A stretch of 64,000 nucleotides of DNA from Cristatella mucedo. Taxonomy: Eukaryota > Bryozoa > Phylactolaemata > Cristatellidae. The stretch is taken from assembly GCA_009760855.2 (NCBI GenBank), contig WPIO01000035.1:3921501-3985500 (forward strand), read 5' to 3'. The stretch's first letter is position 1; every line of letters begins with the position of its first letter. The notes under the pieces were generated by a model. It searched no databases and was not told where the DNA came from. It saw only the letters and a program-made list of their open reading frames with translations. Of the stretch, positions 14,523-21,929 are shown in pieces. The position numbers and the translations under genes are program-made.

Positions 14523-14795
14523 TTAAACCGCTGTGCCTCCACCGTCCGTCGACTGGACACTGCAGGACGCGTCTCTATCAGTAGCCTCACTGCCACCCGC
14601 CGCCTCGTCGCCGATCAGACCAGTGTCGGCTTCGACGTCGCTCTCGCCGTCAGCAGCTCCTAAACCACCACTGGGCACCCAGAGGCCCAAGGCACCACAG
14701 TGCTTCATGTGGTATTCGGACTCCTTCTGATCCATTTCGCCAATGATCTTCAGCAGCAGTGATTTGTCCTTCGTGTCAGAGCATTCTTTCATCGA
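14523..14795 (-). CDS. CDC37: CDC37, C-terminal exon
   Basis: Encodes the end of the Hsp90 co-chaperone that delivers protein kinases to Hsp90 in the cytosol. Minus-strand translation gives KECSDTKDKSLLLKIIGEMD, then a YHMKHC block and a GLWVPSGG block. These are the hallmarks of the CDC37 C-terminal domain (animal proteins have a ..YHM..C..SGLWVP pattern). An acidic, Gly/Ser-rich tail of about 45 residues follows, then a stop. The exon is bounded on its 5' side by CTCTTGTAG at 14796-14804, a good acceptor, and the codon phase there is 0. It is fully open with no lesions. It belongs with the exons at 21395-21554 and 21813-21929, about 6.6 kb upstream on the same strand. Confidence 0.85.
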   Translation of the reverse strand, partial: SMKECSDTKDKSLLLKIIGEMDQKESEYHMKHCGALGLWVPSGGLGAADGESDVEADTGLIGDEAAGGSEATDRDASCSVQSTDGGGTAV

Positions 14796-15132
14796 CTACA
14801 AGAGCATCGTGCAGCTGGTGAGAGCTGACTGATCAATATGGGGGCAGGCAGGTGAAATGGCGCCCACCATCAACTCCACAGAGAGCCAGGAGAACCAAGT
14901 GGAAGTTATGCTGCTCTTTTGCACTCCAGCCAATGCACTTCTCGGATGCAGCAGCTGGTCAAAAGTTCATGCATGCATCGAACAGCGAATCTCACAGACA
15001 TCTAGGAGAAAGAGTCACAGGGCTGCTAGAGGCTATGGCCCAGCCATTGGAAGTGGTTCGCACCGGTTCCCCAGTGCGATGCATCCGAAGAAATTTCACC
15101 CTGCCTGGTTGGCCCTCTCAGAGTGGTAGTAA

Positions 15133-15510
15133 TACTACTACTACTAATAATAATAATAATATACTTGATAAAACGCCCTCAGATAACTCAGTATATCTCT
15201 AGGCACTTTACATTTGCTGCAAATTAAACATGATGGAAAGTCACTGGTAGCATGCTGAATCAACAACAAGAATAGCATGGTTACATGCACAGGATCAGCA
15301 AGCTTGGTTAGTGGAAATATGCAGTGGCAAGCACATGCAGGTCCAATCACAGGGCACCCACTACATGCTGTAATATATATAGGTGCGTTTTAAGCTTATT
15401 CTTAAATGTGGTCAAGTCAGGGGATGTCGTGACGCAAGGCAGGAGTGAGTTCCAAGCTTTTGGGAGCATACGAACTAATGGCTTGGTCTACAAACGGTTC
15501 GAGGTTTAGG
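15133..15510 (-). mobile_element. L2-A 3' fragment (minus)
   Basis: Reverse-complement tail (TACTACTACTAATAATAAT) and hairpin, then a 3' UTR with part deleted, and coding remnants as far as the GAGTTCCAAGCTTTTGGGAGC block. It lies in the presumed CDC37 intron. Confidence 0.8.
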
Positions 15511-15984
15511 GAGGAGTGGTTGACAGAGCCTTGAAGGATGTTCAGAGTGCCGAATCAGGTTGCATTTCATAAGGGAGGTATATTGTACATTTACTTTTGA
15601 GTGGCTCCCATATTTTATTTGGGGGGAGCTAAAAAAAAATCTACAGGGTAGCAAACCTTTGATGGGAGTGTCAAGGTTGTTTCCCGAAGCTGGCCACTAG
15701 GTACTTAGAGGGGCTTACAAGGCAGTCGACGAATCACCCCTCTCCCATTCAAATATCTTCAGAGGTGGGCTCAAGTCCTTTAAGAACCCTTCAGCCACGG
15801 AGTGGCCAAAAAACTTTTGAAAAGTAGCCCTACCTGGTAAACAGTAATGTCCTTTGCGAATTAGTTACTGCATCTGGCCTAATATTGGCATTCGCCCACA
15901 TTTCTCTAGATTAGCATGGCAAGAATTTGTGGCCAGTGGTGAAGAAACTCATCCCACAAGGGTCAAGGTAATTTGTATTTGACG

Positions 15985-16080
15985 AACCTAGGCTGTGGGC
16001 TCGAGCCCAGTGGCATATGCTAAACACCTAATTAGAGATCAAGTTCTCTTAGCAAGCTATACAAATGAATTATGTAGATT
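15985..16080 (+). mobile_element. SINE-like element with L2-type tail
   Basis: The B-box-like GTGGGCTCGAGCCCAG is followed by a tail with AGAGATCAAGTTCTCTTAGC, which can fold as a short hairpin, and ends TATACAAATGAATT next to a TA microsatellite. Confidence 0.6.
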
Positions 16081-16141
16081 ATATATATATATATATATAT
16101 ATATATATATATATATATATATATATATATATATATATATA
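16081..16141. repeat. TA microsatellite
   Basis: About 30 TA repeats directly after the SINE tail, which may have grown from that tail. Confidence 0.95.
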
Positions 16142-19100: not shown

Positions 19101-21129
19101 TTATGCAACCAGAAGACAATCTCGAAGCACAAGCAATGCATCAGGTTTCAGGTCCACATAGAAACAGCAGCAATATTAGCCCCCTCCTGCTGGTCTTCTA
19201 ATGACTCCAGCACCTTACTTATGGTCGGCTATACCAATGACTAAAGGGATCATTTGCCATAAGCAACAATTAGCCTGGCAGTTGTGAAATATCGACGAAG
19301 CCTATGACAGGCAGAATTTCTCCAAGCTACTGAAACACGTGAGATCACTACTATAAGCACATTTAATGTTTTCGCGAGATAAATTTCAAGTCCGATATTT
19401 TACACTGCTACCCTAACATGGTTAGACAAGGAGAGTCTCACTACCATTGCTGTTGAAGAATCAAAAGACAAGGGGTTGCACATCCGGTCCAATGGTCTCC
19501 TGCTTGTGCTGATTGTGCCACTTGCTTCCAAACTTCAATCTTTGAACGAAAAAGCCAACTCTGTTGGCTTCAACTGCTGCTAAAGTATTCATATATGGTT
19601 CCCTGTTTGATCCCGTGATCATACAATGCCCTGGTATGTCACTTACAAATACATGTCTGTGCATGCGTGATATTATGTGCACACTCGTGGGTGACCGCAA
19701 GTGCATGTGTCTGCACTCACATGTAAGTGCTCAAATGTACATGGGCATGTATGTGTATCTTGTATGGGGGCAATGAAAGCAGTGAAATGTGTGAAACAAT
19801 CCAAATGCCAACCCAATTGGAAATGCTGGAAGTCAAAGTAATCATGGCAACAATGGTCAAAACACACAAAGCTAAAAAAAAAGGTCCCCAGTATTTACTG
19901 AAGATCTATCAAAAAGTGGCTCCTGAGACTGTGCCAGTACACTCAAGCACGAGCAAGTCAGCTGAGCTTTCCTGATGCATTACATGCTTAGGATTTGTCC
20001 AGCCACTCTTGTGAGCGAATGTCTGGGTCTTAGACCTTAGGTTATGTTTCTTGTTCACTGCACAGCTCAAGTCGTGTGCGGGATACCTGATACAGGTAAT
20101 TGTTCATTGCCCACTTCATTGGGCTCAAGCAACTAAAGCTTATAGCTACTATATAAAAAAGTTTGCTAAAGAAGCTGCTCCTTAGTTATAGTAACCCTCA
20201 GACTGAAGGGCAAACGTGTCAGCTGTCTAGTTTAATAATTAGGGGTAATTGTAAAAGGCCTGCAATATGCAAAGTTGCCAGGTCGGCTGCTTGGTACTCC
20301 CAACAAACTGGAGGTCACTCACGTTCATTATTAGTTCCAGCTGCATCCGTGTCACGATCATTGTGACTTGCTGCCATTGAACTGAACAGTTCTTTGGGCC
20401 TGCCTTAGTCGCTGCACAATCACTCGTGGTTTCAAACTTGTGGAAACCCAAATCAGAACGACCAGCGAACGTCAATTGATCTAATCTCTAAATCCAGTGA
20501 CCAGAGGTTGTCTGCAGTGGGACTTCGTTAAATCGAAAGAACACTTTCCTCGAACAGAGTAGGATCCCGCGCGGCCTCAGGACTTTTGATTCAAGGCTAT
20601 CGACCCATCGTGAGCTACCTGTGTGCAACTGCTTTTCGTTCGACGCTCAGCACACGGGGCTTTAGAGCAGCAGAGGCTGCAGACTCCCACGCCTAAACCC
20701 AATGTTCAGAAAGTTCAGCTTAGTTCAGAATGAGCGATGTCGTAAGTTTGTAATAATGAGTTGGCTGGCAAGATGCTATCCATTGCATCTGCTTTCAGCA
20801 CAGACTCGACAGCCAATCTACAGCACGACCTAAACAGGTCCAGGCATGTTCAAAAAACTACCACAAGCATTCTGCCACCACAGAGCAAGTGAATACCTGA
20901 ACGTGTGTGCTGCCTCTTAGTGGCAATGCAAGCAAAGCAGTAATGAATCACATGGCCAGCAGAAGCCGAGTGAGGCTTATACAGGTGAAGAAAGCATGAA
21001 CTTTGGCAGTTTATGCAAAGCGATTCGTAGCTGTAGATTTTTTGCTGCCCCCTCCCACAATAAACAACGGACGACCGGGCTTGAAGCTCTAATCACAGCA
21101 TGCTTTCACGTGGGTGCTCGCTAGACAAA

Positions 21130-21253
21130 TCTCTCTCTCTCTCTCTCTCTCTCTCTCTCACTCTCTCTCTCTCTCTCTCTCTCTCTCTCTCTCTCTCTCT
21201 CTCTCTCTCTCTCTCTCTCTCTCTCTCTCTCTCTCTCTCTCTCTCTCTCTCTC
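21130..21253. repeat. CT microsatellite, about 62 repeats
   Basis: Near-perfect CT run with one CA interruption near 21160. The Ser-Leu frames across it are artefacts. It lies about 140 bp past the CDC37 exon end, in the intron. Confidence 0.95.
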
Positions 21254-21394
21254 CTTTGCTCCATCAGATCCTTCTTCTACAACGACCGGGACGCGAGCGC
21301 CTGCACAGTGAGCCGCTGCGCGACTTGCGACGACCGCCTCAGCAGCAGCAGCAGCAGCAGCATCTTAAACAGGCTTAAAGGCTTAAACACCCAC

Positions 21395-21554
21395 GCCCTC
21401 CAGCTCGAGATCGATGCACCACAGGACGAGATAGTTGGCAGTCTCGTCGCAGGCTAAGTAAGGATGCTCGGTGAGGAACTCGAGGCTGTCGTCGTACTTT
21501 CTGAACAAGCAGAATTTCTTCACCAGCAGTGTTGTTCCGTTCGGTGAAGCGTTT
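21395..21554 (-). CDS. CDC37: CDC37, middle exon, with frameshift
   Basis: Encodes the region leading into the CDC37 Hsp90-binding domain. The minus strand reads KRFTERNN in the phase of the previous exon. One extra base follows (near 21530), then the frame continues VKKFCLFRKYDDSLEFLTEH and DETANYLVLWCIDLELE. The second block is nearly diagnostic for CDC37, whose animal members share a CxETANYLVxWCIDLE core. Removing one base gives a residue-for-residue alignment with the usual spacing. The acceptor is TTTTGTCTAG at the 5' border and a GTGGGT donor follows at 21394. The frameshift is either an assembly error or a sign of a dying copy. Confidence 0.85.
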
Positions 21555-21812
21555 CTAGACAAAAGAGCCGGAGAACATGAGGCAGCAGCACGTAAGACGA
21601 AGCGCAAGGGCATGGGCTGAGAAAGCATGTTTACTCGAGCGTTGAGCATTGGCTGAGCTACAGACGCAGGTGGCTCGATGACTACTTGCAAGAGATACGA
21701 GCTGCTATAGGCAAGCAATCGTTTTTGGCAACCTTGCTCTCCCCTCCTGCCTGCCTTCTAGTGCTCCACAAGCCACTACTACCCGCACAGTGAGACAACC
21801 AGGTGGCCCTAC

Positions 21813-21929
21813 CTGCCTATCCATCTTTTCCTCGTCGGTCAAGACTTCCTTTTTCCGAGGTTCACTCTTGTTAATGATAGTCTTTCCTTTCCCATCGTGA
21901 CAAATTGTGTCGATGTTGAGCAGCCTGAG
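21813..21929 (-). CDS. CDC37: CDC37, exon upstream of the middle exon
   Basis: A 117-base exon, exactly 39 codons, phase 0 at both ends. The 5' border is TTTTTGTAG and the 3' border CAG followed by GTAGGG. The translation includes LLNIDTICHDGKGKTIINKS and then a charged stretch ending DEEKMDRQ. This fits the CDC37 segment after its N-terminal coiled coil (NxDTxxxDGxxKxxxN pattern). It joins in phase to the exon at 21395-21554. The start exon, with the conserved N-terminal kinase-binding region, was not found in the window. Confidence 0.8.

Follow-up and report, generated by a model that had tools for sequence, protein, structure and literature searches.

The 64,000-nucleotide window analysed here (C288:3921501-3985500, in an assembly of 572,011,866 bases in 688 contigs) comes from the bryozoan Cristatella mucedo, and its minus strand carries pieces of a gene for CDC37, the Hsp90 co-chaperone for protein kinases (PF03234, PF08565, PF08564). 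The question raised by this locus is whether these pieces belong to a functional gene or to a dead one. An earlier model-made reading of the letters, hereafter the original prediction, offered both answers: a working gene with hidden exons, or a decaying extra copy. The second is supported and the first is not, as the genome contains an intact CDC37 gene on contig C55, of which the window carries a truncated duplicate with seemingly near-neutral divergence, with exons 1–3 outside the duplicated block and a central stretch missing. The CDC37 pieces are almost certainly a truncated, unprocessed (duplicated) pseudogene whose intact source lies elsewhere in the genome.

The derivation of the pieces from CDC37 is established by alignment to the human protein and by the match to the intact gene, which agree on the three minus-strand exons, corresponding to exons 4, 5 and 8. 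In a search of the 64-kb window, human CDC37 residues 159-200 align at 21398-21523(-) with 55% identity (E 2.5e-12) and residues 305-360 at 14619-14792(-) (E 1.7e-7). A third block, residues 115-165 at 21792-21917(-), is unconvincing by itself (E 0.16); its ungapped score at 21846-21917 is 49, the best of 20 shuffles reaching 43, and it is made certain by the exon of the intact gene, to which 113 of 117 bases are equal. The human query is identical to PDB chain 5fwk_E over 378 residues; the fly Cdc37 query used below is unverified. The window copy retains the CDC37 blocks NIDT, DETANYLVLWCIDLE, EYHM and GLWVP, and the splice sites and phases of its exons, the phases having been called correct from the letters alone, match those of the intact gene.

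The possibility that the blocks come from another family finds no support in a phmmer search of PDB chains, in which the exon 5 and exon 8 blocks match seven sequences each, CDC37 only. Single exons all fall below the Pfam cut-offs. The exon 8 block, with its GLWVP motif and an E of 1.9e-7 to a CDC37 PDB chain, scores 18.6 bits for CDC37_C against a cut-off of 22.1, and the part encoded by exon 7 is missing; a second match scores 15.7 bits against 25, and the third block matches no family. The three minus-strand frames of 14500-23501 give a weak CDC37_C match of 11.9 bits, together with a match to Trypan_PARP, a repetitive-protein family, of 17.7 bits against a cut-off of 100. Compared with a partial and unverified query for the vertebrate paralogue CDC37L1 (Harc), human CDC37 scores higher with the exon 5 copy (144 versus 140), the exon 8 copy (101 versus 35) and the exon 4 copy (55 versus 35).

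A second CDC37 locus, which the original prediction had proposed to look for, is present in the same genome. A profile search with CDC37_N (PF03234) gives at least one match, on C55 (E 3.1e-5), from the two best candidates scored, and the gene found there spans C55:7134235-7146990. It has 8 exons, whose edges were set from alignments and splice signals, with GT-AG introns and 393 codons without an internal stop. The encoded protein is 55.8% identical to human CDC37 over residues 2-351 and exceeds the Pfam cut-off in each of its three domains, with 55.0 bits for CDC37_N, 63.4 for CDC37_M and 46.6 for CDC37_C. A genome search with PF08565 produced no candidates, a negative that is uninformative because the intact gene matches PF08565 once spliced. 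Presumably it is this gene that supplies the Hsp90–kinase co-chaperone function.

The window copy is an inverted duplicate of part of this locus, introns and 3′ flank included, and the block (Table 1) aligns in five blastn pieces of 88.0-92.0% identity. With (AG)n and (AT)n stretches excluded, the two copies differ at 716 of 8652 aligned bases, a divergence of 8.3%, and by 67 indels. The block starts within intron 3 of the intact gene and exons 1–3 lie outside it, which is why no start exon is seen upstream in the window, an absence that had been noted from the letters. The C55 stretch holding exons 1–3 (7130000-7138700) has a single window match, of 106 nt at 63185-63289, outside the block, and the flank at C55 7149900-7154600 likewise has one, of 260 nt at 63597-63849, far from the block; the remaining matches of the 48.7-kb C55 stretch beyond the block are repeats, out of register. 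At one end, from 22017, the window enters a stretch approximately 60% identical to window 11751-12195, which we read as a remnant of another family of long interspersed nuclear elements (LINEs). At the other end, similarity stops at window 12948 and C55 7148754. Because neither tested flank matches in register, the two loci are taken as separate places, not as two haplotypes of one.

Two other proposals about the extent and orientation of the block were rejected: it does not reach into the internal repeat 22421-25749 / 58666-61333, as it ends at 22020, and the flanking LINE tails (15128-15508 and 22976-23627) did not invert the gene, whose exons are all in one orientation. Just past the block end at both loci lie copies of a second LINE-like family (C55:7148916-7149887 and window 11379-12361), 91% identical to each other and running opposite to the orientation of the block, by chance or as a trace of its movement.

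Within the block, the window copy carries two lesions. The extra base recognized in the original prediction is present in the assembly and lies within the first 31 bases of the exon 5 copy, which is one base longer than its intact counterpart. The approximately 100 central codons reported as unaccounted for correspond to a stretch of about 444 bases, C55 7139491-7139934, that is absent between the window exons. Lost with it are 96 of the 116 exon 6 bases, the whole of intron 6, the 190-base exon 7 and 35 bases at the start of intron 7. Of exon 6, the window retains the acceptor and the initial 20 bases, after which comes an (AG)n array where the missing stretch ends, its exact edge not being placeable inside the repeat. 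Absent exons and a disrupted frame are what is ordinarily seen in a dead gene copy, and an assembly error at either lesion is unlikely given the remaining evidence.

A six-frame scan of 13500-24500 that tolerated stops recovers the known exons 4, 5 and 8 with scores of 49, 144 and 101, and in the same scan human segments 1-45, 46-114, 201-245 and 246-304 stay within 20 shuffles, as do three segments of fly Cdc37. Over the whole window, the human segments are also within shuffles, these being shuffles of the 11-kb gene region and hence lenient for 64 kb; for the N-terminal kinase-binding part with HPNID (human 1-45), the best score in the window is 35 against 39 in the 11-kb-region shuffles. 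Outside the block, 27 residues at 10862-10942(-) score 45 with the central segment of the unverified fly Cdc37 sequence, for which the best shuffle is 40; we take this match as chance.

Relative to CDC37, the window copy is without exons 1–3 and 7, has 20 bases of exon 6 and a broken frame in exon 5, and cannot encode the three-domain protein. Alignment to the human protein places its losses in the N-terminal segment and at about residues 208-304, the latter taking in approximately the final third of the middle domain, the connecting helix and the opening residues of the C-terminal domain. The Hsp90-binding middle domain is thus incomplete, with the equivalent of human 159-200 present and most of exon 6 and exon 7 absent. 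For human CDC37, one study draws the middle domain as 140-244 and the connecting helix as 245-292, and reports that tight binding of a kinase client, BRAF V600E, needs both the N-terminal segment that bears HPNI and the C-terminal domain (PMC9313131).

From these comparisons, we infer that a chromosomal block of approximately 10 kb, reaching from intron 3 to about 1.8 kb past the last exon, was copied in inverted orientation beside an old LINE-like remnant. The copied block holds neither exons 1–3 nor the sequence upstream of them, and the copy probably lacks both a promoter and a function. After copying, the sequence from exon 6 (all but its first 20 bases) through exon 7 would have been deleted beside the (AG)n repeat, exon 5 would have gained a base, and coding changes would have accumulated at places where the intact gene stays conserved. 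In its intact parent in the genome, its copied introns and flank, its edge inside the source gene, its disabling lesions and its relaxed divergence (judged on a small sample), the window copy shows no notable difference from a truncated pseudogene duplicated by segmental duplication.

Two measures bear on selection. Over 182 codons compared between the window copy and the intact gene, the nonsynonymous divergence (Ka) is 0.060 and the synonymous divergence (Ks) 0.105, from 24.5 nonsynonymous and 11.5 synonymous differences. Their ratio of 0.57 is near the half-way value for one free and one constrained copy, such that the window copy looks near-neutral, in what is a small sample of sequence. 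The amino-acid changes are also polarized: among 24 differences, the human residue is found in C55 at 12, in the window copy at 1 and in neither at 11 (two-sided binomial P 0.003), and restricting the comparison to residues shared by human and the unverified fly sequence gives 9 to 0.

Several observations weigh against a dead copy. The exon copies keep a coding appearance, with GC content at third codon positions of 0.57, 0.81 and 0.64 compared with a mean of 0.43 in gap windows and an observed-to-expected CpG ratio of 0.99 compared with 0.49 in the gap, and the exon 4 and 8 copies have no internal stop. A recent origin explains this appearance, which would equally fit some kept function. Furthermore, the Ka/Ks ratio comes from 36 differences and would be equally compatible with both copies being weakly constrained. 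Finally, the exon 4 and 5 copies diverge by 3.4% and 5.7%, less than the block average; exon 8 diverges by 8.4%, intron 4 by 16.3% and intron 5 by 2.9%, and because divergence varies in this way along the block, the local rates are not to be over-read.

If the open exons 4 and 8 and the coding composition were signs of use, the window could hold a second working CDC37 gene whose extra base and missing exons are assembly errors, and the missing stretch has one end within a long (AG)n repeat, the kind of sequence in which assembly can go wrong. Two separate lesions would then both have to be errors, however, and exons 1–3 would still be outside the block; the 12 to 1 excess of polarized differences on the window copy and the Ka/Ks ratio also count against this reading, and we regard a second working gene as very unlikely. 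Of a similarly slight likelihood is that transcription of the copy gives an RNA, or a peptide pieced together from parts of exons 4, 5 and 8 by alternative splicing around the broken exon, that regulates or disturbs intact CDC37.

The proposal that the fragment is still active, either as a peptide representing part of CDC37 or as an RNA regulating the intact gene, draws on the frame of the second half of exon 5, which is open upstream and has in-frame AG acceptors (for example, before 21616), so that alternative splicing could in principle bypass the extra base. This proposal is highly improbable: nothing is left of the N-terminal kinase-binding part, about 95 codons from the middle, the linker and the first C-terminal part have been lost, the changes look near-neutral, and such open frames and AGs are presumably common by chance. 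The open frame itself, at 21383-21757(-), has 124 codons, extends from intronic sequence into the latter half of the broken exon 5, includes the in-frame AG acceptor before 21616 and is probably a chance occurrence.

Assemblies of heterozygous genomes often contain haplotypes in duplicate, and the two loci might accordingly represent one CDC37 locus with an unmerged second haplotype; we give this hardly any credence, as in-register similarity stops at both ends of the approximately 10-kb block, the flank matches are far off, and the divergence is 8.3%. A processed, reverse-transcribed copy, for which the many LINE-like copies in the window could have supplied the enzymes, is the least probable explanation of all and already refuted, because introns 4, 5 and 7 and the 3′ flank were copied with the exons.

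Further searches gave no additional relatives. With human CDC37 as the query, 20 pattern matches in viral contigs yielded none that was confirmed, and with the exon 8 copy, 333 pattern matches in prokaryote genomes likewise yielded none; the window's own genome may be excluded from both collections. Pfam searches of two of the three plus-strand frames of 42501-57500 and Rfam and tRNA scans of the window returned no match, and the literature matches listed contained nothing on this locus. The features of the window copy, which is read as a pseudogene, are collected in Table 1.

Table 1 Features of the truncated CDC37 copy in the window and the evidence for each
Feature	Position	Strand	Evidence or remark
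Whole duplicated block	12948..22020	(-)	Inverted relative to C55:7138729-7148754
CDC37 exon 4 copy, 117 nt	21813..21929	(-)	4/117 bases differ from C55 exon, no indel; splice sites
CDC37 exon 5 copy, 160 nt (intact exon, 159 nt), one extra base, frame broken	21395..21554	(-)	Alignment to C55; human CDC37 match
Exon 6 remnant, first 20 bases, acceptor just before, then deletion	21257..21276	(-)	Alignment at deletion edge
(AG)n microsatellite, approximate edges, also in intact intron 7	21130..21250	(-)	Deletion of ~444 bp ends inside
Remaining intron 7 copy, with indels	14796..21129	(-)	Alignment to C55
CDC37 exon 8 copy, 273 nt, stop codon kept	14523..14795	(-)	23/273 bases differ, no indel; phmmer to CDC37 chains

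The two copies also differ by larger insertions or deletions. Within intron 7, a 470-bp stretch is present in C55 only (7143353-7143822, corresponding to window 17865), and approximately 175 bp are present in the window only (16131-16305). A 170-bp stretch at C55 7147539-7147708 is not in the window copy and resembles window ~45840-46011. The letters GGCTCGCTTA stand on both sides of it as a repeat and occur once at the corresponding place in the window, and the stretch is probably a short interspersed nuclear element inserted after the duplication.

Other mobile elements and repeats lie in the window outside the block. An 899-codon open frame, free of stops, at 35652-38351(+) is LINE-like, with endonuclease-like and reverse-transcriptase-like parts recognized by eye, and we take it to be CR1-like; tblastn with this frame finds further pieces in the window at 44-86% identity. 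The segments 22421-25749 and 58666-61333 form an internal duplication of approximately 2.7 kb with 83-85% identity, in which a LINE tail (22976-23627) sits in the first copy and the corresponding site in the second, at 59209/59220, is empty.

The finding is of little importance beyond annotation, where the output of a gene caller could include a spurious or incomplete second CDC37 or suggest that an essential co-chaperone has changed in this lineage; tying the copy to its intact source removes that risk. The pair offers a small, clear case in which an unprocessed duplicate went on to decay, and one copy alone probably received a mobile-element insertion later.

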